From: Salinicola peritrichatus
Lineage (GTDB): Bacteria; Pseudomonadota; Gammaproteobacteria; Pseudomonadales; Halomonadaceae
Assembly (NCBI RefSeq): GCF_003206715.1
Contig: NZ_PZJU01000006.1
Span: 62,001-126,000, forward strand
Direction: 5' to 3'
DNA length: 64,000 nucleotides
Shown here: one piece after another, positions 1,582 to 21,999 of the stretch
Position numbering within the stretch: position 1 is the first letter of the stretch
How the letters are laid out: each line of letters begins with the position of its first letter
Made by a program: the position numbers and the translations under genes
Notes under the pieces: generated by a model
What the model was told of the DNA's origin: nothing
Databases searched by the model: none
Seen by the model: the letters and a program-made list of their open reading frames with translations, nothing else

Positions 1582-1749
1582 ATGTCGATTGAAGTGGAAT
1601 CTAAACTCCAGGCCCTTGCTGATGAGATATCGGATATTAAGGCCCAGCTTTCCGATACAGAAGCCGTATTGAGCATGACTCAAGTTGAGCTCTCTGCGGC
1701 AGAGAGCCGGATCGATGAGATGGAAAGCCAGATGCAGGAGCGGCAGTGA
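1582..1749 (+). CDS. Small coiled-coil phage protein, 55 aa
   Basis: A 56-codon ORF starts at ATG 1582 behind a strong AGGAGG ribosome-binding site (1571-1576). It ends at TGA 1747-1749, overlapping the GTG start of the next gene. The product is almost wholly a predicted amphipathic helix with heptad-like spacing (IEVESKLQALADEISDIKAQ, then further Leu/Glu/Ser repeats to the C-terminus), with no Cys, Pro or Gly. A short trimeric or dimeric coiled coil is likely; the partner is unknown. Spacing, RBS and coupling on both sides make it a convincing gene despite its size. Confidence 0.75.
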   Translation: MSIEVESKLQALADEISDIKAQLSDTEAVLSMTQVELSAAESRIDEMESQMQERQ

Positions 1750-3371
1750 AGATAGCCATTACCGCCTTCAAGGGTGAAATTCCGAAAGTTGATCCTCGCC
1801 TACTGCCGGATAGCAACGCCCAGGCAGCACGGAACGTCGATCTTGACCGTGGCACGGTCAAGTCGCTGCCGAATGTTTCGACGACGGATACGGTGCCCGA
1901 TGTGGCAAACCCGACCACGCTCTATCGCTATCCGAATGGCAACGATGGAGAGGGATTCTGGTTCGTATGGGGAATGGATAAGCACGTCCACATCGTTCGG
2001 TCCCCGCTGGCTAACGACGAGTGGGAGCGTGTCTACTGGACGGGTGACGGATTTCCCAAGATGGCGGGGATCGGCCAGGCGACAGCAGGCTCTCCGCCGT
2101 ACCCCGGGAACTATTACAGGCTGGGCATCCCCGAGCCTAATGGGGCGCCGACCCTGTCCCAGCCCGACGATCGCGATGCCAGTGAAGAGATCCCCGACAC
2201 CGCGCTCGAGACCACCTATGCGGTGACGCTGGTCAGCGGATTCGGGGAAGAAGGCCCGCCGACGGTATCGGGCACAACGATCCTGCGCTGGGACATGGTT
2301 GACGATGCTCCCGCGGGGGGTGGCGTGGTGGTGACTCTGCCCGGCATCCCGAGCGGCGCGCAGAATATCGTGACCAAGCGTCTCTATCGTGTGGAATCGG
2401 GCGGGGTGTTTCAGTATGTCGCCGACGTTGATGCTTCAACAGCCACATACCGGGACGATATTTTCAGCGAGCAGTTGGGCATTGATCTGCCGTCGACAGA
2501 ATGGCAGGGGCCAGACGACCGGATGATAGGGCTCACGGCATTGCCGAATGGCATCCTGGCTGGTTACTTCGGCAACACGCTGTGCTTCAGTGAAGCATAC
2601 CGGCCCCATGCCTGGCCGGTTGGCTATCAACTCGCCATGCAGCACGACATCGTAGCGATCGCCTCAACATCCGTTGGTCTCGTCGTCCTGACAGAGGGAA
2701 AACCGGTGCTGGTGACTGGGTCAAGCCCCGAGGCCATGGCGCAAGGAGAGTTGGATGTAAACCAGCCCTGCGTGGCGGCACGTTCGGTCGTGGACATGGG
2801 GGCATATGCACTCTATGCCTCGCCTGATGGGCTGGTTGCTGCCACCGGTCAGGACGCCCAGGTCGTGACCGCCAATGTGATGACGAAGGATCAATGGCAG
2901 GTATTGAAGCCCGAAACTATCCATGCGTACCGCTACGATGGGAAGTACCTGGCTTTCTATGACGGCGGATGTTTTGTATTCACCCCCGGCGAGGGTGTCG
3001 AGTTTCACGACATCCAAGCTAGTGGCGGGTACTACGACATTACCGACGATACTCTCTATCTGATCCAGGACGACGATATCGTCGCATGGCGGCAGGGCTC
3101 GGCGTTGCCATATCGGTGGCGATCAAAAGTGTTCGAGGTACCGCCCGGCGGTGCGGGCTTCACTTGCGCCAAAGTGATCGCTCGCGAGTATCCGATCACG
3201 ATTCGTCTGTTCGCCGATGGCGCGACGATGTTGGAAACTGATGTCGACGGCCCGGGGATGTTTCGTCTGCCGTCAGGCTATGCGTTGAGCCGCGACTGGG
3301 AAATCGAGATCGCCGGCACCGCGGAGGTCAACAGCGTACAAATCGCGACGAGCCCCTCGGAACTAACGTAA
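1746..3371 (+). CDS. Phage tail/virion protein, beta-rich, 541 aa
   Basis: Starts at GTG 1746 overlapping the preceding stop. The N-terminus MKIAITAFKGEIPKVDPRLL matches a conserved phage family whose members begin with a GEIP..PRLLPD box followed by an RNVDLDRG-type segment. The body is rich in short beta strands with recurring G/W/D turns (for example LPNGILAGYFGNTLCFSEAY and the ALYASPDGLVAA segment), suggesting a propeller-like or multi-sheet tail component comparable in layout to tail-hub or DNA-stabilisation proteins of podoviruses. No enzyme motif is visible. Its position next to the tail fibre supports a tail role. The exact function is inferred. Confidence 0.65.
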   Translation: MKIAITAFKGEIPKVDPRLLPDSNAQAARNVDLDRGTVKSLPNVSTTDTVPDVANPTTLYRYPNGNDGEGFWFVWGMDKHVHIVRSPLANDEWERVYWTGDGFPKMAGIGQATAGSPPYPGNYYRLGIPEPNGAPTLSQPDDRDASEEIPDTALETTYAVTLVSGFGEEGPPTVSGTTILRWDMVDDAPAGGGVVVTLPGIPSGAQNIVTKRLYRVESGGVFQYVADVDASTATYRDDIFSEQLGIDLPSTEWQGPDDRMIGLTALPNGILAGYFGNTLCFSEAYRPHAWPVGYQLAMQHDIVAIASTSVGLVVLTEGKPVLVTGSSPEAMAQGELDVNQPCVAARSVVDMGAYALYASPDGLVAATGQDAQVVTANVMTKDQWQVLKPETIHAYRYDGKYLAFYDGGCFVFTPGEGVEFHDIQASGGYYDITDDTLYLIQDDDIVAWRQGSALPYRWRSKVFEVPPGGAGFTCAKVIAREYPITIRLFADGATMLETDVDGPGMFRLPSGYALSRDWEIEIAGTAEVNSVQIATSPSELT

Positions 3372-9431: not shown

Positions 9432-10670
9432 ATGGCAGGATTGGATACCCGCGGCTTGGCAAGTGGGCTGGCGCAAGGTCTCGGGCTCGGCATGAAACTG
9501 CAGAACCAGGAGCGACAGGCGCAGTATCAGAACGCCCGCATGCAGCAGTACGAGCGTGGCCTGGACATGCGAGAGCAACAGTACAACGACCAGCGTGAGC
9601 AGCAGCAAAAGGCACGCCAGCTCGAGCAGGATAAGCTCTTGGCACAGAGCGGCTACGCGCGACTCGCTGCCGGTCAGGATCTGGACGATGAACAGCTCGA
9701 AGCATTCAAGCGCAATCCATGGATGGCACCTTGGCATGTGGCTAGTGATGGCGTTGGACAGGCAATCGATCAGGCGCAGCGGGTCATCGATCCCAAAGAT
9801 CCGGCCGATCTCAACGACCCTGAGTCACTAGAAGCACTGAACGCCATGTTCGGGCCACGCATTAATCGTGGCCACGGAACGAACAAGCGCATCCGTGCCG
9901 CCGTCCCCGGACGGAAACCCGGCACGTTGGCATTCGATCTCGACGTCGAGGGAGAAGACGGTAGCCGCTATACGGCGCCGATGACGCGCAATCGCGGTAA
10001 GGCCGGCGACGACGATGAGGTCATGCAGACTGATGTCGGCGATATCGTCAACCAGGTGGCCGGTTATAAGGCGCTACGCCAAGTACTGTCATCGCCGGAA
10101 GCACGCGAGAAGGCATTGGCCTATGGTCGCCAACTCGGGTTTGTGCCGCAGGCGGCCGACACCTGGGAGACAGTACAGGGACCGGGGGGCAGCTTGCTGC
10201 AACGCAATACTCGCACGGGCGAGATGAAGTCCATTGTTGGGCGCGAGCCACGCAGCGGTGGCGGCTATGGCTATGCCCCCACATCTTCGATGAAAGAAGC
10301 GCAATGGCTGGTCGCCAACGGCATTGCACCCAATATCAGTGAAGCCTACAAGATGGCCCGTGCCCGGGCAGGTTTGGATGGCGGCCAGCAATTGGAACTC
10401 AAGCAGCTCGACTATCTGGGCGATCAGATCAGCGACATCGATAGCCAGGTAAAAGCCTATCAGGACAACTACCAGGAACCCCCACAGGATCTACTGGCGC
10501 AACGCCAGCGATTGATGCAGCAGCGCGAGGCGATCGCCGGGCGCATCTGGGGAGGCGAAGCAACGCCCACCGGCAGGCATGTCGAACAACCTCAAGCGCA
10601 ATCACCGCAGCGCCAGCAGACGGGCGACGACTTCGACCCTGATGCATTCCTCAACGACCTCGGAATTTAG
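9432..10670 (+). CDS. Phage internal virion/ejection protein, 412 aa
   Basis: Starts MAGLDTRGLASGLAQGLGLG after an AGGAG site (9420-9424). Residues ~25-75 are a long Gln/Arg/Glu coiled coil, the middle holds a beta-rich domain (RAAVPGRKPGTLAFDLDVEG), and the C-terminus is a Gln-rich helix with a short acidic tail. Composition and position directly before the giant polyvalent protein match the large internal protein pair of podoviruses. The stop (TAG 10668-10670) is inside the ribosome-binding region of the next gene. Confidence 0.65.
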   Translation: MAGLDTRGLASGLAQGLGLGMKLQNQERQAQYQNARMQQYERGLDMREQQYNDQREQQQKARQLEQDKLLAQSGYARLAAGQDLDDEQLEAFKRNPWMAPWHVASDGVGQAIDQAQRVIDPKDPADLNDPESLEALNAMFGPRINRGHGTNKRIRAAVPGRKPGTLAFDLDVEGEDGSRYTAPMTRNRGKAGDDDEVMQTDVGDIVNQVAGYKALRQVLSSPEAREKALAYGRQLGFVPQAADTWETVQGPGGSLLQRNTRTGEMKSIVGREPRSGGGYGYAPTSSMKEAQWLVANGIAPNISEAYKMARARAGLDGGQQLELKQLDYLGDQISDIDSQVKAYQDNYQEPPQDLLAQRQRLMQQREAIAGRIWGGEATPTGRHVEQPQAQSPQRQQTGDDFDPDAFLNDLGI

Positions 10671-10679
10671 GAGACGCCC

Positions 10680-13600
10680 GTGGCTGGCAAGTGGCAACAA
10701 GTCGTGCAGAGCGAGCGCTGGCAGGCACTCGACCCCGAGCAGCGCCAGGCCGTGCGAGGTGCGTTTTTTGATCGCCAGATCCGACCCCAGACGCCGGGCG
10801 ATAAGCTCGAGGCCGTGCAAAGCGCTTTCTTTACCCGCACCGAGCCGGATGTCTTCGGCAAGAGTGATGAGGAAGGTGGTGGCGTCGGCGCCATGGATTA
10901 CGTCAAGGAGCTTGGCGCCGGGCTAGAAGAGGGTACCGGTGCCGTCCTGCAGGGCGCCGGCGATCTTCTCGAGCAGGGTGGCAAATGGGTCGATCGTGGG
11001 CTGCGCGCTATCGGGCTCGGCGATGCGGTCGATGTTGGTGACCGGGCGCTGGGCGGTCGCAGCCCATCCGACGCCGTGCGCGGCGCCGGCGAGTGGTTCG
11101 ACGAGGGCGGCGATACTCTTCGCGCCCGTCAATCCGAGGCCGCGACACAGGCACGTGAGGACAGCACGCCGACCGGCGATATCACCAAGCCTTCGACGTG
11201 GAGCATGGGCGAGGACCCGAGCCTCGCCGGTTATGGGCTCCAGGTCTCCAACCTGATCGGCCAGTTCGCACCGCAGGCCGCTGCACTGCTGGCGCCCGGC
11301 GGGCAGGCGCGCGCTGTCGGCATGGCCAGTGTTGGTGGGCTGCAGGCGGGAGGAGCCGCCGGCCAGGATGCCGAGCAGTACGTCATGCAGCAGAGTGACG
11401 AGGATCTGGCGAAGAATTCCGGCATGTATCGGGATCTCATCGACCAGGGTGTTGAGCCGGCAGAGGCAAAGCGCCAAACCGCAGTTGCCGCGCGCGGTGC
11501 CGCATTCGCCGGGGCTGCACCAGTGGGCGGTGCCGGTGGGGCGCTGACCCATTACATTCTGGGCCCGTTCCAGCGGGCCATCGGTGGCGGCGTCGGGCGT
11601 CGTCTGGGTTACGGTCTGGCAGTGGATGCGCCGGCGGAAGGCGCTCAGGAAGTCGCCGAAACCGTGGCAGGGCGCACGGCTCAGAATGAAGCCACTCAGG
11701 GCAACCGGGATACCACGCAAGGCACCTTCGGCGATGCTGCCCTCGGTGCTATCGCTGGTGGTGGTCATGCTTCTCTCGGCGCGGCGATGGGCGAGACGTT
11801 GCCGCAACGCAACCGGATGCCGACACCCGACGATCTGGTGCGGGAACGCACACCGGAGGACATTGCCGAGGCTGAACAGCAATACCAGCGGGATCGCGAC
11901 GACGAAGCACGCCAGTGGTTCGAGCGGCGCCGCGCCGACGAGCAGTCCCAGCAGGCGGCCCGGGAGCAATTCGGCGAAGACGGCGCAGCGGTTTGGCAGA
12001 ACGCCGACAACGACCTGCCAGTCAGGGTTCGCGGCATCGAGCCGGAGCCGGACGAGGAAGGCCGGCAGTATGCCCGCGTCGAAGTCGATGGCCAGGAAGG
12101 CTTTGTGCCCTTGGATGAGCTTCGTGCCACGGAATCAGACCCGGTCGAAGAATCAGCGGCAGAGCCCAACCCGGACAATCCGCGCCAGCCCCAACTCGGC
12201 ATCGACAACGACATTCGCGTCGCCGAGCGGATCGGCGCCGACGAGGACGCCATCCGTCTGCGTAATGCCAAGTCACTGTTCCTCCGCGCTATGGAGCAGG
12301 ACGCCGCCGGCAACAACGATGCAGGATCGCGCCTACGCGAGCGCGGGCTGAACATCTATCGCGACATCTACGGCGACCCTGAATCACCGATGCCGGAACG
12401 GCCGGCGTCATTCCCGGTGCCGTACGAATATGTCGGTGATGTCGAGGCAGGCGGGCAGCTTCCGGTTCAGGCCGCTCGTCAGGATCGAGGAGAAACCTAT
12501 TCCGGCGAGCCCGATCCGGCGCTTGCCACCCCGGCACCGCAACTACGCCAGGGGGACCAGGCCACCGGCGACCCTCTGATCTACGGCCAAGGGCCAACCG
12601 TCCGTCGCGGCAATGCCAATACCGGCCTGGATCAGCCGTTCGAAGGTGCGCGCACGACCGACACCAGCGCCGAGCAGCGCAGTGATTACGATCCAACTAA
12701 GCCTGTAGATACGCCGCGCCACCGCCGACGCATGGAGACGAGTGGTCGACGTGCCACCGCATATCTAGCTGATAACACGCCGGTACCGGTACGTTACCGC
12801 GTCATGGATCTGGACGAGCTGACGCCCTCAAATGATCCTGATGGTGCAGTGAACCCACTGTTCCCAACAGAGCTTCAACCCCGGGACCGAACCGGGAAGA
12901 ACAGCCAGGTTCAAGTGCGCAATATCGCGGCACGCCTCAACCCCGAGCGTCTTGGCGAATCCACAGATGCAGGCAGCGGATCGCCGATCGTGGGTCCTGA
13001 TGGTGTAGTTGAATCCGGCAACGGCCGAACGATGGCCATCGCACAGGCATATCGCAGCGATAGTCCGCAGGCCAGGCGCTATCGTGACTTCGTGCGTCAG
13101 CGCGCTCAGGACTTTGGTATCGACCCAGGCGTCGTTGCCGGGATGCGAAATCCCGTTCTCGTTCGTGAGCGCACAGGTAGTATCGACCGTGCCGAATTCG
13201 CCCGCCGTGCCAACGAAGCCGATGTCGCTGGCATGACACCGCATGAATTGGCAATCTCCGATGCTGATCGGCTCAGCGTTGACGACTTGGCGCAGTGGGC
13301 ACCGGATGAGAGTGGCGATCCGCTTGCAGCGTCGAACCGTGCCTTTGCGCGCCGCTTCGCCCAGCGCATGGGGAACAACGAGGCCAGCCGCTATCGTGGC
13401 CGGGATGGCCAGCCGACGCCGGAACTCGGCGAGCGCATGATGCGTGCCGTATTCGCCAAAGGCTATGCAGACGACCAAGGGCGTCCGTCGACCGATATGG
13501 TTGAAATGGTCGCCGAGCCCCAGGGGCGGATGCGCAATCTGACAGTGGCACTGCAATCAGCCGCGCCTGATTTTGCCATTGCACGAGAATATGGCGGCGA

Positions 13601-16600
13601 GCAAGCCCAGGCCATGGCTGATACCGTTGTCGATGCGGTACGCATTGTGCGTCAGGCGCGCTCTTCCGGTATCTCTGTGCGTGAGCTGGTGAGCCAAAAT
13701 GATGCGTTCAGCCAGCCCGTGCCACATGACACGGCCATGTTGGCATCCTTCATTGCCAACAATGCCCGTAGCCGATCTGGATTGAATGAAGCGCTGTCGC
13801 TGATTGCCGCAGCGACCCGTAACCGTGCTGAAAGCAGTCGAAACGGCTCGCTATTCGGCGATCAAGTCAGCAACCAGGACATTCTCGATGCAGCAACGCG
13901 ACAAGATTCATCTACGCCGGATCCAGAACGATCCAGCAGTGACGGAGCTTTTGCGGGAGGGGATCGCGCAGGCACAGGCGAGACGCCCCGAGGGTCGGAA
14001 ACTGATCGTGCCCGAGCACCTGAACAAACCCAAGAAGTAGACGATCCGCTTCTCACGACGTACACCGAGCAGGATATCGCCGACCGCGAGCGAGCCAATG
14101 CAGCGTCAGCGCAAGATGAGCAGCTCCAGCGCCAGGCGGAGGCGCAGCGCGCTCAGGCCGACCGTGACGCCGAGGGCTTCACGCTCACAGGCAGCGATCG
14201 GAGTGCGGATGTAGCTGCCGCTCAAGGTCAGGATGATCTGCTCGATACACGGTACGCCATGCGTTCGAACGCCGGAGACGTGGCGCCACCGACCGCCGAA
14301 CAGGTCCGAGCCGCTTTGGACAGCCTGGGCGAGCGTCTTGGCGACTTCACCGTCGTGGATTCGGCGGCGGAACTCCCGCTCCTGAATCAGCTAATGATGG
14401 CTCGCGATAACGTCGATCCCGCCGATGTCCGTGGCATCTATAGCGGAGACCGCCTGTACATCGTGGCGTCCAACAATGACAACATTCAGCAGGCCGTAGC
14501 GACGGCCGTTCACGAGGCCGTCGGGCACAAGGGGATTCGTGGCGTTCTCGGCGACGAGATCGAGCCGGTGATGCGCCAACTCTACAAGTCGCTGCCATTC
14601 GACAAGCGCGGCCGTGAAGCGCTCGACGAGGTGCTGGCCGACTATCCGTTCCTGGATCGCAATAACCCAGACGACCAGGTGACCATCGCCGAAGAAATGG
14701 TCGCGCACCTGCTCGAGAAAGGATACAGGCCCAAGGCGTGGCAGCGCGCCGTGGCCAAGATCCGGGAATTGCTGCGGAGATTCTTCCCCAGCGTGGCCTG
14801 GACCTACTCGGACGTACTGGCGCTGGGAGAGCGATCCCGCGAGTATCTGCGTTCGCAGGCCAGCACCTCGGAACCCGGCCAGGGGCCGAACCGATACTCG
14901 CGCCGCGGCTGGCGCTCGGACTTTCCCGACGCGGCACTGGCGCACCCGCTGCGCTGGGCAACGCAGCATCCGGACTACGAGGCGGCCAAGGCCGGCGACG
15001 ACCAGGCAGCGCTACGGCTGGCGCGCGATGCCGTCACGCCGGAGTTCGTTGAGCAGGTGCGACAGATGATCCCCACCGGTTCGCAGCCTCGCATCGTGCC
15101 GGTGGTGGCGCAGGAAAGCGCGGGCAGGAATCGGATTCCGGCAATGGCTGCCGAAGTTCTCGCAGCACGGCTGGGCCTTGGTACCGTCGATAACCTGACC
15201 CAGCGCGAGCGCGTATCGCGTACCGGTGCCAATGCGATGGATCGCCTGCAACGCCAGCCTACGTTCGACGGCGACGTGGATGGCGGCGACTTCCTCTTGC
15301 TCGATGACACCTTGACCCAGGGCGGCACGCTGGCGCAGTTGAAGACGCATATCGAAGACCAGGGCGGGCGGGTGCTTGGCGTGGCGGCATTGACCGGCAA
15401 GCAGTACTCGCGCAAAATTGCTGTCGACCCATCAACTCTGGATCAAGTCCGTGACCGATTCGGTTCTGTCGAAAACCAGTGGCGTGCAGCCTTCGGCTAT
15501 GGCTTCGAAGGACTCACCCAATCGGAAGCCCGAACGCTCCTTACATTCGAGCGCGGACGTCTATCGCCTGACGAACTCCGAAATCGAATCCCTGCGCTCC
15601 GAGATGCAAGCCTCAATGGCGTGGGCGAGGGAGCAGCTGGCGATCGATCCGGACCTGAAGCACCTCTAAGCGATCCCTCCCGCTACAGTCTGCGCCCCCA
15701 GCGTCAGCCCGTCGCTGATCAATTCGATGACCTGAGCCCTGAGCAACAGGCCTTCATGGCTAAGTTCGGCCCCAGTACGCCGACGCGCCGCGTCATGGAG
15801 TGGTGGAAGGATCTCAGCCACCGCGCCGGCCTGCGTATCCGGCAGGGCATGATCGATCAGTATGCCGCGCTCAAGGAACTCGACGAGAAACGCTTCGGCA
15901 AGGATGGTGCACTCAAGCAAAGCATCACCAGCTCCAGTTGGGTGCTGGCGCGCATGTCGAATGCCGCCAATGGCGCGCTGCACGCCATGCTGCACAACGG
16001 TCGCATCTACCTCGATCCCGATCAGAAGGTGATCGACATTCGGGACGACGACTCCAAAGGGCTCGGCGCCGTGCTGGGTCGACTGGGCAGCCCGGCGGAG
16101 ATCGAGCGCTTCATGATGTGGATCGCCGCCAATCGCTCCAGCAAGCTCAAGGATGAGGGCCGCGAGTTCCTTTTCAGCGACGGCGAGATTCGTGCCGGCA
16201 TGCAGCTCGACCAAGGACGCATGGCGGATGGCGGCAGTCGGGCCGAGCGCTACGCCGAGGTCTTCGACGAGTTCCAGCAGTATCGCGACGACGTGCTGGC
16301 CATTGCGGAACGGGCGGGCGTGATCCGACCCGATCAGCGCGCGATGTGGCGCGACGAATTCTACGTGCCGTTCTACCGGCTCAAGGACGACAAGGACGTT
16401 AACGTCCAGCTCGGCACCAGCGGGCTATCTCGACAGCAGGCCTACAAGCGCCTGAAGGGCGGTACGCAGAACATCAACGACTTGCTTCAGAACACGATGA
16501 TGAACTTCCATCATCTGCTCGATGCCAGCCTGAAAAACCAGGCAGCGCAGCAGGCGATCGACAATGCCGAAGCGATGGGTATGGCGCGCCGCGTGCCGGA

Positions 16601-18374
16601 GAGCGGGCGCGATACTTCGAAGTCGACCTTCGTCATGAAGGACGGCGCCAAATCCTTCTACGAAATCGACGATCCGCTCGTGTTCCAGGCGCTTTCCGCC
16701 CTGGCGCACCCGGGCATGAACAACACGATCATGAAGGTGATGCGTGGTTTCAAGCGCGTCTTCACCAATCTGACGACGACCACCCCGCAGTTCATGGTCG
16801 CCAACCTGATTCGCGACAGCCTGCAGGCCGTGGCGACCAACGAAGTCAGCATGAATGTGTTCAAGAACGTCTACGATGGCACCGGTACGCTGCGAGACCA
16901 GCGCAAGCGCGCCCGGATGCTGGCTGCCGGTGGTAGCTTCAACTTCGGCCACCTGTATAACAACAACCCCGACGAGCTACGCGCGCAACTGACGCGCAAC
17001 CTTCGCGATGCCAAGATCGTCGGTGTTCCCGGATCCCGGCTCAAAGGCTTTGCCGCGCCGGCGGCGCTGATCCGTGCAGGTTGGGCGAAGTGGGGCGACG
17101 TCACCGACTTTGCCGAGAACCTGAACCGAGCGGCGATATACGACCAGAATCAGGACCAGGGCAAGCTCAAGGCGGCATTCGAGGCTCGGGACCTGATCGA
17201 CTTCAGCGCACGCGGCGCATGGCCGGCGGTGCGCATCCTGACCGACATCGTGCCGTTCCTGAACGCTCGCATCCAGGGGCTGGACAAGATCTACCGCAGC
17301 GGTGTGAAGCCGGGCGCCAATGTGCTGGCCGCAGCCTTCGGCAAAGGCGAGGCCGGTGTTTCCGATCGTCAGGCGGCTGCCCGATTCTGGTCCGTCGCCG
17401 GCGCGCTCACACTGGCCACGGTCGCGCTCTATCTCCACAACCGCGACGACGAGGACTACCAGAAGCTCGAGGAGTGGCAGAAGGACACATACTGGTTCTT
17501 CAAGGTCGGCGATCAGGAATTCTTCATTCCCAAACCGTTCGAGGTGGGTGCCATCGCCACCATGGCCGAGCGCGTCACCCAGCAGTTCGTCGACGATGAG
17601 GCGACGGGGGCGTTGTTCGGCCAGCGCATGATGCACATGCTCACCGACACGTTCAGCTTCTCGCCAGTGCCGCAGATGATGCAGCCCGCGCTGGATGTTT
17701 ACGCCAACCGGGATTCGTTCACCAATCGGCCGATCGAGGGCATGGGCGATGAGCGGCTTTCGCCACAACTCCGCAAACGCGATGACAGCTCTCTGGCGGC
17801 GCGTGGCGCCAGTTGGGTGCTGAATCACTCCGTTGGCGCCATCGGCGATCCCGAACTCAACCCGATGGCGCTGTCGCCGCTACAGATCGACTACCTGATC
17901 CAGGGCTATCTCGGCCAGGTTGGGTCATGGGCGATTGGATCGGCCGATGTCGCATGGCGAGTTTTCGACGGCAAGGACGAGCCGGCCAAGCATTGGTACG
18001 AATACCAGCCGATCCGTCGCTTCTATCGAAACCTGGGCGACGAGCCGCGATATACCCGCTATGGCACGGTCTTTTATGACGGATTGCGCGAGGCCGAACG
18101 TGCCTATGCCGACGTCAAGGAGCTGGGTGAGCTCGGACGGATCGAAGAGGCTCGAGAGTTGGCCAAGAACAAGGCCGATGTCTTGCGCCTGCGCAAGCCT
18201 TTGATGAAGGCTCAGCGCGACCTGGGCAAGATTCGAGCCCAGATGGACGCCATTCGCCGCTCGGACCTGGACGGAGACCTGAAACGCCAGCGCCTCGATC
18301 GACTCACGGCCGTGCGGAACCGGATCCAGCAGGTATTGGGTGAGAAGATTCTGGAGCAGCGCGCGGCGGAGTGA
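10680..18374 (+). CDS. Giant phage polyvalent protein: ParB-like, HEAVGH metallopeptidase, PRTase-like, LPD38-like
   Basis: GTG 10680 follows AGGAG at 10669-10673; 2564 residues. In order: Gly/Ala-rich hydrophobic N-terminus (~70-370), as in ejected internal proteins; an acidic linker; a DdrB-type ParB-like domain (~697-930; GVVESGNGRTMAIAQAY near 774); a zinc peptidase helix HEAVGH (1278-1283); a phosphoribosyltransferase-like domain with the PRPP-loop pattern FLLLDDTLTQGGTL (1538-1551); and an alpha-helical C-terminus matching LPD38 (from ~2026, TTTPQFMVANLIRDS) with a hydrophobic helix near 2236. Motifs RYAMR (1191), RYSRR (1405) and RYSLR (1668) fall at module boundaries. Polyvalent proteins are known as co-injected effectors against host defences. 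Enzyme activities here are inferred from motifs. Confidence 0.8.
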   Translation: MAGKWQQVVQSERWQALDPEQRQAVRGAFFDRQIRPQTPGDKLEAVQSAFFTRTEPDVFGKSDEEGGGVGAMDYVKELGAGLEEGTGAVLQGAGDLLEQGGKWVDRGLRAIGLGDAVDVGDRALGGRSPSDAVRGAGEWFDEGGDTLRARQSEAATQAREDSTPTGDITKPSTWSMGEDPSLAGYGLQVSNLIGQFAPQAAALLAPGGQARAVGMASVGGLQAGGAAGQDAEQYVMQQSDEDLAKNSGMYRDLIDQGVEPAEAKRQTAVAARGAAFAGAAPVGGAGGALTHYILGPFQRAIGGGVGRRLGYGLAVDAPAEGAQEVAETVAGRTAQNEATQGNRDTTQGTFGDAALGAIAGGGHASLGAAMGETLPQRNRMPTPDDLVRERTPEDIAEAEQQYQRDRDDEARQWFERRRADEQSQQAAREQFGEDGAAVWQNADNDLPVRVRGIEPEPDEEGRQYARVEVDGQEGFVPLDELRATESDPVEESAAEPNPDNPRQPQLGIDNDIRVAERIGADEDAIRLRNAKSLFLRAMEQDAAGNNDAGSRLRERGLNIYRDIYGDPESPMPERPASFPVPYEYVGDVEAGGQLPVQAARQDRGETYSGEPDPALATPAPQLRQGDQATGDPLIYGQGPTVRRGNANTGLDQPFEGARTTDTSAEQRSDYDPTKPVDTPRHRRRMETSGRRATAYLADNTPVPVRYRVMDLDELTPSNDPDGAVNPLFPTELQPRDRTGKNSQVQVRNIAARLNPERLGESTDAGSGSPIVGPDGVVESGNGRTMAIAQAYRSDSPQARRYRDFVRQRAQDFGIDPGVVAGMRNPVLVRERTGSIDRAEFARRANEADVAGMTPHELAISDADRLSVDDLAQWAPDESGDPLAASNRAFARRFAQRMGNNEASRYRGRDGQPTPELGERMMRAVFAKGYADDQGRPSTDMVEMVAEPQGRMRNLTVALQSAAPDFAIAREYGGEQAQAMADTVVDAVRIVRQARSSGISVRELVSQNDAFSQPVPHDTAMLASFIANNARSRSGLNEALSLIAAATRNRAESSRNGSLFGDQVSNQDILDAATRQDSSTPDPERSSSDGAFAGGDRAGTGETPRGSETDRARAPEQTQEVDDPLLTTYTEQDIADRERANAASAQDEQLQRQAEAQRAQADRDAEGFTLTGSDRSADVAAAQGQDDLLDTRYAMRSNAGDVAPPTAEQVRAALDSLGERLGDFTVVDSAAELPLLNQLMMARDNVDPADVRGIYSGDRLYIVASNNDNIQQAVATAVHEAVGHKGIRGVLGDEIEPVMRQLYKSLPFDKRGREALDEVLADYPFLDRNNPDDQVTIAEEMVAHLLEKGYRPKAWQRAVAKIRELLRRFFPSVAWTYSDVLALGERSREYLRSQASTSEPGQGPNRYSRRGWRSDFPDAALAHPLRWATQHPDYEAAKAGDDQAALRLARDAVTPEFVEQVRQMIPTGSQPRIVPVVAQESAGRNRIPAMAAEVLAARLGLGTVDNLTQRERVSRTGANAMDRLQRQPTFDGDVDGGDFLLLDDTLTQGGTLAQLKTHIEDQGGRVLGVAALTGKQYSRKIAVDPSTLDQVRDRFGSVENQWRAAFGYGFEGLTQSEARTLLTFERGRLSPDELRNRIPALRDASLNGVGEGAAGDRSGPEAPLSDPSRYSLRPQRQPVADQFDDLSPEQQAFMAKFGPSTPTRRVMEWWKDLSHRAGLRIRQGMIDQYAALKELDEKRFGKDGALKQSITSSSWVLARMSNAANGALHAMLHNGRIYLDPDQKVIDIRDDDSKGLGAVLGRLGSPAEIERFMMWIAANRSSKLKDEGREFLFSDGEIRAGMQLDQGRMADGGSRAERYAEVFDEFQQYRDDVLAIAERAGVIRPDQRAMWRDEFYVPFYRLKDDKDVNVQLGTSGLSRQQAYKRLKGGTQNINDLLQNTMMNFHHLLDASLKNQAAQQAIDNAEAMGMARRVPESGRDTSKSTFVMKDGAKSFYEIDDPLVFQALSALAHPGMNNTIMKVMRGFKRVFTNLTTTTPQFMVANLIRDSLQAVATNEVSMNVFKNVYDGTGTLRDQRKRARMLAAGGSFNFGHLYNNNPDELRAQLTRNLRDAKIVGVPGSRLKGFAAPAALIRAGWAKWGDVTDFAENLNRAAIYDQNQDQGKLKAAFEARDLIDFSARGAWPAVRILTDIVPFLNARIQGLDKIYRSGVKPGANVLAAAFGKGEAGVSDRQAAARFWSVAGALTLATVALYLHNRDDEDYQKLEEWQKDTYWFFKVGDQEFFIPKPFEVGAIATMAERVTQQFVDDEATGALFGQRMMHMLTDTFSFSPVPQMMQPALDVYANRDSFTNRPIEGMGDERLSPQLRKRDDSSLAARGASWVLNHSVGAIGDPELNPMALSPLQIDYLIQGYLGQVGSWAIGSADVAWRVFDGKDEPAKHWYEYQPIRRFYRNLGDEPRYTRYGTVFYDGLREAERAYADVKELGELGRIEEARELAKNKADVLRLRKPLMKAQRDLGKIRAQMDAIRRSDLDGDLKRQRLDRLTAVRNRIQQVLGEKILEQRAAE
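13888..14040 (+). CDS. Nested out-of-frame ORF in a polyvalent-protein linker, 50 aa
   Basis: In the +1 frame of the giant gene, an ATG at 13888 is preceded by AGGA (13876-13879, 8-base spacing) and opens a 50-residue ORF. The predicted product looks like a compact basic protein (RRIQNDPAVTELLREGIAQA, then RKLIVPEHL, basic KPKK end). The main frame over the same bases is a low-complexity Ser/Asp/Arg/Gly linker between the ParB-like and metallopeptidase modules. That contrast suggests overprinting or an inherited small gene. No promoter is visible and expression is unproven. Confidence 0.4.
   Translation: MQQRDKIHLRRIQNDPAVTELLREGIAQAQARRPEGRKLIVPEHLNKPKK
15499..15669 (+). CDS. Nested out-of-frame ORF before the RYSLR motif, about 56 aa
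   Basis: A second +1-frame ORF inside the giant gene ends at TAA 15667-15669. Its C-terminal part (VYRLTNSEIESLRSEMQASM, then WAREQLAIDPDLKHL) is a well-formed amphipathic helix pair, while the main frame there is a Gly/Ala/Ser-rich linker between the phosphoribosyltransferase-like domain and RYSLR. The start is uncertain: ATG 15499 has no clear ribosome-binding site, and a TTG at 15418 is also in frame. It is recorded because it repeats the arrangement of the other nested ORF. Confidence 0.3.
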   Translation: MASKDSPNRKPERSLHSSADVYRLTNSEIESLRSEMQASMAWAREQLAIDPDLKHL

Positions 18375-20277: not shown

Positions 20278-20287
20278 CTTTAACTTT

Positions 20288-20364
20288 TGGTCGGAGCGAC
20301 AGGATTCGAACCTGCGACCTCTGCAACCCCATTGCAGCGCGCTACCAAGCTGCGCCACGCTCCG
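20288..20364 (-). tRNA. tRNA-Pro (anticodon GGG)
   Basis: The minus strand gives a full 77-nt cloverleaf. The acceptor stem CGGAGCG pairs with CGCTCCG, the anticodon stem CTGCA/TGCAG encloses loop ATGGGGT with anticodon GGG (bases 20328-20330), the T loop is TTCGAAT, and an encoded CCA lies at 20288-20290. It reads proline CCC (and CCU) codons. Its 3' end faces the prophage, so it is the probable integration target. Confidence 0.95.
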
Positions 20365-20544: not shown

Positions 20545-21999
20545 TCACAGCCAGAACAGTTCGATCAGCCCCATGCAGATCAGGGACACGAGCAGCGTGC
20601 CGACGATATTGAGGAAGAAGCCGGCACGAATCATCGACTGGATCTGCATGTGGCCGGTTGCGAACACGATCGCATTGGGCGGTGTCGCCACCGGCATCAT
20701 GAAGGCGCAGCTCGCGGCAATCGCTGCGGGTACCGTGATCAGCAGCGGGTCGGTGCCGAGCGACATCGCCAGGGCGCCCAGTAATGGCAGGAACGCGGCC
20801 GCAGTAGCGGTATTGGAGGTCAGCTCGGTCAGGAAGATGATGACCAGTACGATAACGGCGATCAGCAGCAACAAGGGCAGCGCGCCGAATACGCTGAGCT
20901 GGCTGGCGATCCAGTCGGCCAGACCGGAACCGCTGATATTGCCCGCCAGCGCCAGGCCGCCCCCGAACAACAGCAGGATCCCCCACGGCAACTCTTGGGC
21001 GTCTTCCCATACCAGCAGTGGACGATATCGCTCGTTGCCGCTGGGAATCAGGAACAGGGCGACGCCGGCAAAAAGGGCAATCGAGGTATCGGAGAGCCAT
21101 TCGATCCCCAGATCGTTCAACAATGGGCGCGTGACCCAGGCCAGGGCGGCCAGCAGAAAGACGATGCCGACGCGAGCTTCTGCCGGGCTCAGGCGTCCGA
21201 GCTTGCTCAACTCGTCACGGATGACGTTGCCGTCCCCATCATCGAGTTTCAGTTTGAAATCGCCCCGGGTCAGCCACCACCAGGCAACGACCATCATTGC
21301 GAGACTGACCGGCAGGCCGACGACCATCCATTGGGCAAAGCCGAGCTCGATGTTCTGCTCGCTGGAGAGGTACCCGGCGAGGATGGCGTTGGGAGGCGTA
21401 CCGATCAGCGTGGCGATGCCGCCGATACTTGCCGAATAGGCGATCGCCAGCAGCAGTGCCGTGGCATAGCGCTTGGTCTCGGCCTGGTCGGCGCTGGCGT
21501 AAAGTGATACCACCGACATGCCGATGGGGAGCATCATGATCGCGGTGGCGGTGTTCGATACCCACATGCTGATGAAACCGGTCGCCAGCATGAAGCCGGC
21601 GACCTGCTGTTTGGGTTTTTGACCGACGACATCGAGGATTCGCAAGGCGATGCGGCGGTGAAGGTTCCAGCGCTGCATGGCGATACCGAGCAGGAACCCG
21701 CCGAGGAAGAGAAAGATGGTGGGATTGGCGTAGCTCGCGGCGGTCCCCTTGAGATCCGCGATGCCCAAGGCCGGCGCCAGGGGGATGGGGAGCAGAGAGG
21801 TTGCTGGAATCGGGATCGCTTCCGTGGCCCACCAGGTCGCTAGCAGTAGCGCCAGACCGACGCAGTGCCAGGCCGCCGGCTCCATTCCGGCTGGCGCTGG
21901 CAGCAATTGGGTCAAAACGACCCAGATGAGGCCGAGAATCAACCCAATTCTGGCTGCGGTCGAAGGTGAGGCCTGTTGTTGCTCGGAGGCTTCCGTCAT
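20545..21999 (-). CDS. DASS-family sodium:dicarboxylate/anion symporter
   Basis: 484 residues with about 11-12 membrane segments. The two SNT motifs of the SLC13/DASS family are present (VSNTATAIMMLPIG and LTSNTATAAAFLPLL), each paired with a proline-containing loop (GTPPNAI and ATPPNAIVFATGHM). Members import succinate, malate, fumarate, citrate or sulfate with sodium, which suits a salt-dependent bacterium. The N-terminus is cytoplasmic and Gln/Ser-rich. It is divergent from cysQ; substrate specificity cannot be read from sequence. Confidence 0.9.
   Translation of the reverse strand: MTEASEQQQASPSTAARIGLILGLIWVVLTQLLPAPAGMEPAAWHCVGLALLLATWWATEAIPIPATSLLPIPLAPALGIADLKGTAASYANPTIFLFLGGFLLGIAMQRWNLHRRIALRILDVVGQKPKQQVAGFMLATGFISMWVSNTATAIMMLPIGMSVVSLYASADQAETKRYATALLLAIAYSASIGGIATLIGTPPNAILAGYLSSEQNIELGFAQWMVVGLPVSLAMMVVAWWWLTRGDFKLKLDDGDGNVIRDELSKLGRLSPAEARVGIVFLLAALAWVTRPLLNDLGIEWLSDTSIALFAGVALFLIPSGNERYRPLLVWEDAQELPWGILLLFGGGLALAGNISGSGLADWIASQLSVFGALPLLLLIAVIVLVIIFLTELTSNTATAAAFLPLLGALAMSLGTDPLLITVPAAIAASCAFMMPVATPPNAIVFATGHMQIQSMIRAGFFLNIVGTLLVSLICMGLIELFWL

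Follow-up and report, generated by a model that had tools for sequence, protein, structure and literature searches.

The window analysed here, a 64,000-nucleotide stretch of Salinicola peritrichatus DNA (contig NZ_PZJU01000006.1, positions 62,001 to 126,000), carries on its + strand (10680..18374) a gene for a 2564-residue phage polyvalent protein that has a GTG start and no cysteine codon. The protein begins with a block homologous to the N-terminal region of the virion RNA polymerase (vRNAP) of phage N4, ends in an LPD38-type region, and holds between a putative metallopeptidase (MPTase) and that C-terminal region a phosphoribosyltransferase (PRTase) domain of the type found in the plasmid protein KfrC. 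We regard the chances as about even that it is a packaged, tail-ejected carrier, releasing a PRTase that uses phosphoribosyl pyrophosphate (PRPP) and that, inside the cell that has been entered, changes nucleotide metabolism or takes part in DNA handling.

The open reading frame (ORF) is preceded by AGGAGA at 10669-10674, with five bases between it and the GTG, and an identical copy of the gene is present on IMG/VR contig IMGVR_UViG_2882447294_000001 (64,586 bp, same phage). Because relatives jointly match almost the whole chain, with C-terminal regions up to 71% identical, the frame is a real gene, as a first-pass annotation made from the sequence alone had proposed. From N to C terminus the order is N-terminal module (aa 61-402), ddrB-type ParB domain (698-831), MPTase (1192-1403), PRTase (1404-1642) and LPD38-type region (1685-2560). 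The ddrB-ParB domain (12771..13172, + strand; homologous stretch aa 690-1087), delimited by Pfam and a family hidden Markov model (HMM), matches PF18763 at E 7e-38, with 129.9 bits against a curated cut-off of 27.6. The C-terminal region (15732..18359, + strand; Pfam, PHROG and family HMM) includes the LPD38 domain PF18857 at aa 2257-2443 (E 2.5e-40; 139 bits against a cut-off of 27). Both domains had been predicted, although the C-terminal region begins at about 1668-1685 and not at about 2026. With at least two polyvalent-type domains above cut-off in one polypeptide, and with internal virion protein, tail and tail-fibre families encoded upstream among virion and late genes, the classification as a polyvalent protein stands. 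Of the four modules of the earlier list, ddrB-ParB, PRTase and LPD38 are confirmed, and the peptidase is supported by its conserved residues; the N4-like N-terminal module and the absence of cysteine had been missed.

The KfrC-type PRTase domain (14889..15605, + strand) was defined from alignments, an AlphaFold2 model, Foldseek and Pfam. Its PRPP loop, FLLLDDTLTQGGTL (aa 1538-1551; 15291..15332, + strand), includes DDTLTQGGT at aa 1542. The domain's own match to Pribosyltran PF00156 has E 0.0064 when the full-length chain is searched and 3.1e-4 (20.5 bits) for the excised domain, both under the curated cut-off of 26.3 bits. The assignment is nevertheless secure, since PF00156 is matched at E <= 0.1 by 70 of the 76 PRTase family members (the strongest at 2.6e-8), the model is confident (mean pLDDT 92.9, pTM 0.89), and Foldseek against PDB returns ComF first, together with adenine, orotate and xanthine phosphoribosyltransferases (APRT, OPRT, XPRT). 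The fold and the DD-bearing loop are those of a type I PRTase, albeit with a Pfam score below cut-off, and the predicted loop at 1538 is thereby borne out. Invariant in the 76 rows are K1437, E1479, N1484, P1487, Q1508, R1522, G1531, D1542, D1543, G1548, T1550 and T1613. The search patterns of the scans contained the DD-loop residues, N1484 and P1487, so that the invariance of these is partly by construction; the six remaining invariant residues lay outside the patterns, and the DD loop shows no variation either in a further set of 9 rows, all of which were found by tblastn or given rather than found by pattern.

Immediately before the PRTase lies a putative zincin-like MPTase (14253..14888, + strand). 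The motif HEAVGH, earlier read as that of a zinc peptidase, is indeed present at aa 1278-1283 (14511..14528, + strand), and a partner Glu1339 (14694-14696) supplies the downstream Glu expected with either HEXXH or HEXXXH; the form here is HEXXXH and not the canonical one. Iyer et al. 2017 (PMC5512222) report this variant in one group of polyvalent MPTases. Across 41 diverse MPTase rows the motif Glu, the second His and the downstream Glu never vary, and at least 90% of the rows keep the first His. An AlphaFold2 model (pLDDT 87.3) shows three strands, a helix bearing HEXXXH and a helix bearing the Glu. The putative assignment rests on these conserved residues: the check suggested earlier, profile HMM search with structure prediction, recovered ddrB-ParB, LPD38 and the PRTase fold, but no peptidase.

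The N-terminal module (10860..11885, + strand; family HMM, phrog_2206 and hhalign) is common to other giant phage proteins and to the N-terminal region of N4 vRNAP. It matches phrog_2206 ('virion RNA polymerase') only in the N-terminal part of that family. With a module profile of 15 sequences left after filtering, hhalign aligns aa 214-366 (11319..11777, + strand) with N4 vRNAP residues 291-438 over 147 columns (probability 96, E 4.7e-9, 33% identity, score 75.1), whereas the reversed N4 sequence scores 14.6 and the highest score among 60 locally shuffled versions is 22.4. The N-terminal region is thus of the N4 vRNAP type, but no RNA polymerase domain was found in the window protein, where the phrog_2206 match is N-terminal only and Pfam gives no such match. 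The C-terminal regions of the two proteins are not detectably related: the LPD38 region against the N4 C-terminal part gives an hhalign probability of 0.8, and the MPTase against the same part gives 10.4 (E 0.003), which is too weak. A single-protein scan for the module found 3 loci, the window's own copy among them. Published work ties the N-terminal region of N4 vRNAP to injection, to insertion into the membrane and to the ejection channel (PMC4496689, PMC5512222, preprint PMC12633501). According to the 2025 preprint, membrane-spanning helices are predicted at N4 vRNAP 224-278, just ahead of the shared block, and the isolated N-terminal domain is inserted in nanodiscs and joins the ejection channel; the word 'polyvalent' is not used there. 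As far as the cited N4 and polyvalent-protein papers go, the block in proteins lacking the polymerase appears to be a new link, and it is what distinguishes the window protein from those of Iyer et al., which it otherwise resembles as a large multidomain protein near virion genes; ddrB-ParB, MPTase (including HEXXXH), PRTase and LPD38 are all named there (PMC5512222).

Not one of the 2564 residues is cysteine. A set of 56 non-redundant giants was assembled (at least 1500 aa, with a PRTase, MPTase or LPD38 profile match, the window protein included), of which 45 have no cysteine and 55 have two or fewer, the sum being 15. This near-total absence spans giants of 1500-4550 aa. N4 vRNAP (in L203), likewise a giant phage protein, has none in 3500 residues, and the lack of cysteine in N4-type vRNAPs, possibly relevant to entry or tail passage, is mentioned in PMC2784036 and PMC3915230, both citing Kazmierczak et al. 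For giants other than N4-type polymerases the result appears to be new: the word 'cysteine' does not occur in Iyer et al. 2017 (PMC5512222), and a limited literature search found no earlier statement for polyvalent proteins beyond N4-type vRNAPs. Twelve other ORFs of the window, some unverified as genes, have 55 cysteines in 5562 residues. Within the PRTase domain, giants have 1 in 10,373 residues (44 rows) against 22 in 5,424 for solo proteins (23 rows); proteins with a leader before the PRTase have 3 in 3,064 (13 rows) and those with a tail behind it 2 in 2,818 (12 rows). As the N4 vRNAP-type block and the absence of cysteine both point there, injection with the phage DNA, which had been suggested for the protein, is likely.

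A PRTase following a protease had been called unusual, which is not supported. Eighty PRTase-bearing ORFs with lengths of 1000 aa or more reduce to 47 non-redundant giants, and an MPTase lies within 100 aa upstream of the PRTase in 24 of these (20 upstream only, 4 on both sides), with 6 having it downstream only and 17 on neither side; the occurrence of PRTases in polyvalent proteins of phages and in MuF fusions had moreover been reported in 2017, their role being termed 'somewhat enigmatic' (PMC5512222). L063, L074, L076 and L184 have an MPTase on either side of the PRTase. The LPD38-region profile is matched by 17 of the 47, while ddrB-ParB, MPTase, PRTase and LPD38 occur jointly in 3 (the window protein, L046 and L137). 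A giant protein of Achromobacter phage CF418P1, WNO49116.1, shares the N-terminal module, MPTase, LPD38 C-terminus, lack of cysteine and setting among late genes, but has no PRTase or ddrB profile match and contains an inorganic pyrophosphatase (InPase) domain.

The PRTase is missing as a block in several close relatives. In L002, L013, L014, L017, L024 and L025 the MPTase is directly joined to the LPD38 region, and their LPD38 regions are 59-71% identical to that of the window protein, compared with 55-57% for the PRTase-bearing L043 and L124. L003 and L015 also lack the PRTase, with some 180-240 other residues in its place. The PRTase is thus gained or lost as one unit. For a tree, 94 PRTase domains were classed by protein length and domain position as giant (44), solo (23), leader-then-PRTase (13), PRTase-first-with-tail (12) or other (2); along this tree the carrier label changes at least 23 times, against a possible minimum of 4 and a mean of 44.8 for shuffled labels; the carriers are clustered yet have repeatedly switched. 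Four leader-type or similar proteins were scanned with Pfam, and two have a Mu F domain and two no match. All 12 tailed (KfrC-like) rows fall inside one supported group of 16, whose nearest neighbours include the giant protein L113. InPase domains are frequent in giants (L126, L128, L124, L016-L020 and others), roughly where the window protein has ddrB-ParB. An InPase was considered as a partner that pulls the PRTase reaction, and was rejected: it occurs in 28 of 80 giant PRTase ORFs and 8 of 25 giants without PRTase (redundant sets), which is no enrichment, and the window protein is not among the 37 InPase-bearing ORFs.

By tblastn, the PRTase has relatives in 167 of 72,556 plasmid records, against 2 of 50,697 phage records; 40 plasmid rows sampled down the ranking are 35.7-47.2% identical. 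Scans that started from the PRTase alignment recovered 103 genome-contig and 156 viral-contig relatives, with 80 retained from either set, and within the genus the domain was found in 1 of 18 genomes searched, namely the window's own. In 5 of 8 plasmid regions inspected the gene is KfrC or lies within an IncP/IncU backbone near kfr-, par- or tra-type genes. The N-terminal domain of KfrC (IncU RA3 and IncP-1; PMC8124265) is a PRTase some 45% identical to that of the window protein and has the same DDT motif. KfrC differs in its own tail and its kfrA/kfrB-type neighbours, both lacking in the phage case. Since NF042916, the NCBIfam model for KfrC, is confined to the C-terminal tail of the IncP-1 protein, KfrC may be described as a PRTase with a changeable tail; NF042916 is present in the QKH54 KfrC, is not listed for RA3 KfrC, which has another tail, and has no match in the window protein. 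Solo copies exist as well: L036 is a 237-aa PRTase of Acinetobacter, 44% identical to the window domain, beside an integrase gene, and the same solo protein, with the same identity, is encoded on Acinetobacter plasmids or contigs L060-L062 and L064-L073. On the tree it clusters with the C-terminal PRTase of the viral-contig protein L190.

The only experimental data found on a close PRTase relative (PMC8124265 and PMC7314908) concern KfrC and deal with toxicity, plasmid maintenance and transfer, not defence. Overproduction of RA3 KfrC slows growth of Escherichia coli and condenses nucleoids, and a DDT-to-AAA change abolishes the growth defect; the tail alone is harmless, while residues 1-249, the PRTase part, could not be stably cloned alone and gave rearranged plasmids (PMC8124265). 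The same source reports that RA3 KfrC binds VirD4 via its tail. The kfrABC genes of RP4 lie in the leading region and are reported as induced in new recipients; for kfrC itself the values are 3.0- and 2.4-fold in two crosses with rifampicin-resistant (RifR) recipients, under the 4-fold mark of that paper, and 1.6- and 1.2-fold in others (PMC7314908). The absence of cysteine was also considered as a sign of KfrC translocation, and was discarded: 5 of 5 KfrC proteins lack it, but it is also missing from 7 of 19 neighbouring plasmid proteins of at least 200 aa. The literature search found no paper combining 'KfrC' and 'polyvalent protein'.

The modules of the window protein are bordered by a short motif. 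A scan for the pattern [RKL][YF][SA][LMRIVT] gives exactly three sites, RYAM at aa 1191 before the MPTase (14250..14261), RYSR at aa 1405 before the PRTase (14892..14903) and RYSL at aa 1668 before the LPD38 region (15681..15692), all on the + strand and all candidate processing sites. Among the 56 representatives, 28 of 85 occurrences outside domain cores fall at module starts, where 4.1 are expected (ratio 6.9). When the same letter classes are put in 23 alternative orders, the five that keep the [YF][SA] pair have ratios of 2.0-6.5 and the other eighteen 0-2.7. With the window protein excluded and no pattern chosen, FS ranks first of 337 dipeptides in enrichment at module starts (37 against 8.9). 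The form [YF]S[RLMQ] is found at 16 of 35 PRTase starts and 11 of 21 LPD38 starts, compared with 161 of 4963 background segments. At PRTase starts the motif occurs in 17 of the 27 MPTase-bearing giants (11 of the 19 that have the MPTase directly upstream), in 3 of 15 giants without an MPTase match and in none of 15 small proteins without one; the difference between 17/27 and 0/15 has p 4e-5, kinship among the sequences being ignored. The simplest reading is that the motif is a candidate processing signal for the adjacent protease, the alternative being an inherited linker.

Taken together, a carrier of the following kind may be proposed. The protein would be packaged in the virion and then ejected via the tail. 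Its two ends, the injection-linked module related to N4 vRNAP and the LPD38-type region, would form the carrier proper, in a chain that avoids cysteine throughout, and exchangeable modules would be accommodated between them, namely the ddrB-type ParB domain, the zincin-like protease and, between protease and C-terminal region, the PRTase block. Either once inside the cell or while the virion is assembled, the adjacent protease would probably cut at [FY]S[RL]-like junctions and so free the PRTase, with a mass of about 28.6 kDa. The free enzyme would then most likely act on PRPP or nucleotides in the cell just entered, and its presumed catalysis and benefit would lie in a change of nucleotide metabolism or in the handling of DNA.

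Several observations weigh against this scheme. Foldseek finds no zincin match in PDB for the MPTase model and Pfam no peptidase match for the domain; the sole Pfam peptidase match in the 41 rows is a weak Peptidase_M76 (E 0.059), and the MPTase profile reaches a zincin-like protein only weakly, at E 1. The eight window ORFs directly upstream of the gene have 7 cysteines in 3290 residues, so that the low content is in part general to virion proteins, and tree-independent giant/solo pairs lean to fewer cysteines in giants but are too few (median p 0.25). The junction pattern was discovered in the window protein itself and its counts ignore shared ancestry. Its total of 112 is not raised over the 119.6 in shuffled sequences, so it is the position of the motif and not its number that stands out. 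The form [YF]S[RLMQ] is scarce at MPTase starts (7 of 45) and found at 0 of 14 InPase, 0 of 5 ddrB and 0 of 10 N-terminal-module starts. DdrB of phage P1, reported as processed (PMC5512222), was tried as a check of the motif and failed: the four-letter pattern has no match in it, none of the motif stands between its domains, and one looser match lies at 957, behind the peptidase motif. It shares with the window protein the ddrB-ParB domain (38.5% identity over about 380 aa) and a metallopeptidase motif, but has 995 aa and HELGH, and does not match the MPTase profiles. N4 vRNAP is packaged unprocessed, according to PMC5512222. The toxicity of KfrC is seen on overproduction and depends on the host, none being reported in C. 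necator; an excess of KfrA is more harmful than one of KfrC; and RK2 and R751 KfrC did not bind their coupling proteins, TraG, in the same study (PMC8124265).

The main rival to the proposed carrier of an enzyme is a DNA-handling role, as the best structural match, ComF, supports DNA import and binds nucleotides. The PRTase would then be a non-catalytic, ComFC-like module that binds PRPP or nucleotides and helps incoming DNA to cross the membrane or to be handled in the cytoplasm, which we consider rather unlikely. The top PDB match is Helicobacter pylori ComF (ComFC, 7p0h; E 1.1e-5, TMq 0.47), ComFC binds single-stranded DNA, and a change in its PRPP loop impaired DNA import (PMC9005727). A role in DNA entry was also proposed by Iyer et al. 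(PMC5512222), and the known carriers of the domain, which are giant phage proteins, fusions with MuF and KfrC encoded in a leading region, accompany DNA entry, but the solo copies lack a known delivery route. The four-cysteine zinc finger of ComFC is missing, there being no cysteine in aa 1404-1642 or anywhere else in the chain, and the window domain has extra helical parts at both ends; in a profile search six other PDB sequences, four of them APRTs, outrank ComF. The need for the DDT motif in KfrC toxicity (PMC8124265) fits catalysis at least equally well.

That the PRTase is a counter-defence enzyme, rebuilding or destroying a nucleotide that host immunity makes or consumes, seems unlikely. 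Polyvalent proteins have been proposed to counter host defences (PMC5512222), and on pRA3 a gene annotated as antirestriction is found upstream of kfrC, separated from it by two short genes. ShosT, a defence protein listed in PADLOC, stands at rank 36 of the PDB matches to the PRTase model and matches the PRPP loop of an Acinetobacter plasmid solo protein (E 4.2e-6), but over 38 residues around that loop only. PADLOC has no match for the window protein or RA3 KfrC, and no specific defence is pointed to. Very improbable is a structural or inert passenger, its modules serving capsid assembly or ejection with enzymatic parts largely vestigial: close relatives do manage without the PRTase block, but the conservation of active-site residues in the 41 MPTase rows and the PRTase rows (in the PRPP loop of the 76 rows partly by construction) argues for selection on activity. 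On virion proteomics of LPD38 proteins, the literature search gave nothing direct among the matches listed.

The surroundings of the gene are those of a prophage end. Upstream + strand genes match virion families, namely tail phrog_5939, internal virion protein phrog_511 (1746..3371; E 1.7e-150) and tail fibre phrog_496, and further upstream + strand genes match families with no assigned role, such as phrog_611. The polyvalent protein gene is the final + strand ORF of more than 110 aa ahead of a tRNA-Pro (20288-20364, - strand), the end of which (attachment repeat, 20287..20335) recurs as exact 49-bp and 46-bp repeats farther upstream on the contig; the gene therefore lies at one end of the prophage. 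The first gene examined past the tRNA (20545-21999, - strand) belongs to the sodium:sulfate symporter family. The prophage's own integrase is at C67:25146-26285, upstream of the window. Two copies of the tRNA-Pro repeat flank a 10.8-kb element at C67:14230-24997 (L204, L205, L211), also upstream, which encodes an integrase of its own, an HK97-type capsid, an S78 protease, a portal and a large terminase, and has a small-terminase match slightly under its cut-off; it resembles a phage satellite that forms capsids, placed in tandem with the prophage.

Four points stand out: phage carriers are linked to KfrC, an N4-type N-terminus occurs in proteins other than RNA polymerases, the chains are free of cysteine, and a motif marks the junctions. 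The N4 link points to a candidate ejection module, some 150 residues long, that is found apart from RNA polymerases, the absence of cysteine may serve as a simple sequence sign of tail-ejected giants beyond N4-type polymerases, and the motif offers exact sites at which to seek processing. Because its relative KfrC has a mutable phenotype, the role of the PRTase is testable in E. coli K-12. A wider and rather doubtful extension is that this PRPP-using family is an entry companion common to unrelated delivery systems (ejected giants, MuF capsid proteins and conjugative plasmid KfrC), travelling in phages on a cysteine-free N4-type carrier from which a protease would free it at [FY]S[RL]-like sites, and shifting the nucleotide economy of the cell. 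If so, KfrC would be primarily an entry effector and only secondarily a maintenance protein.

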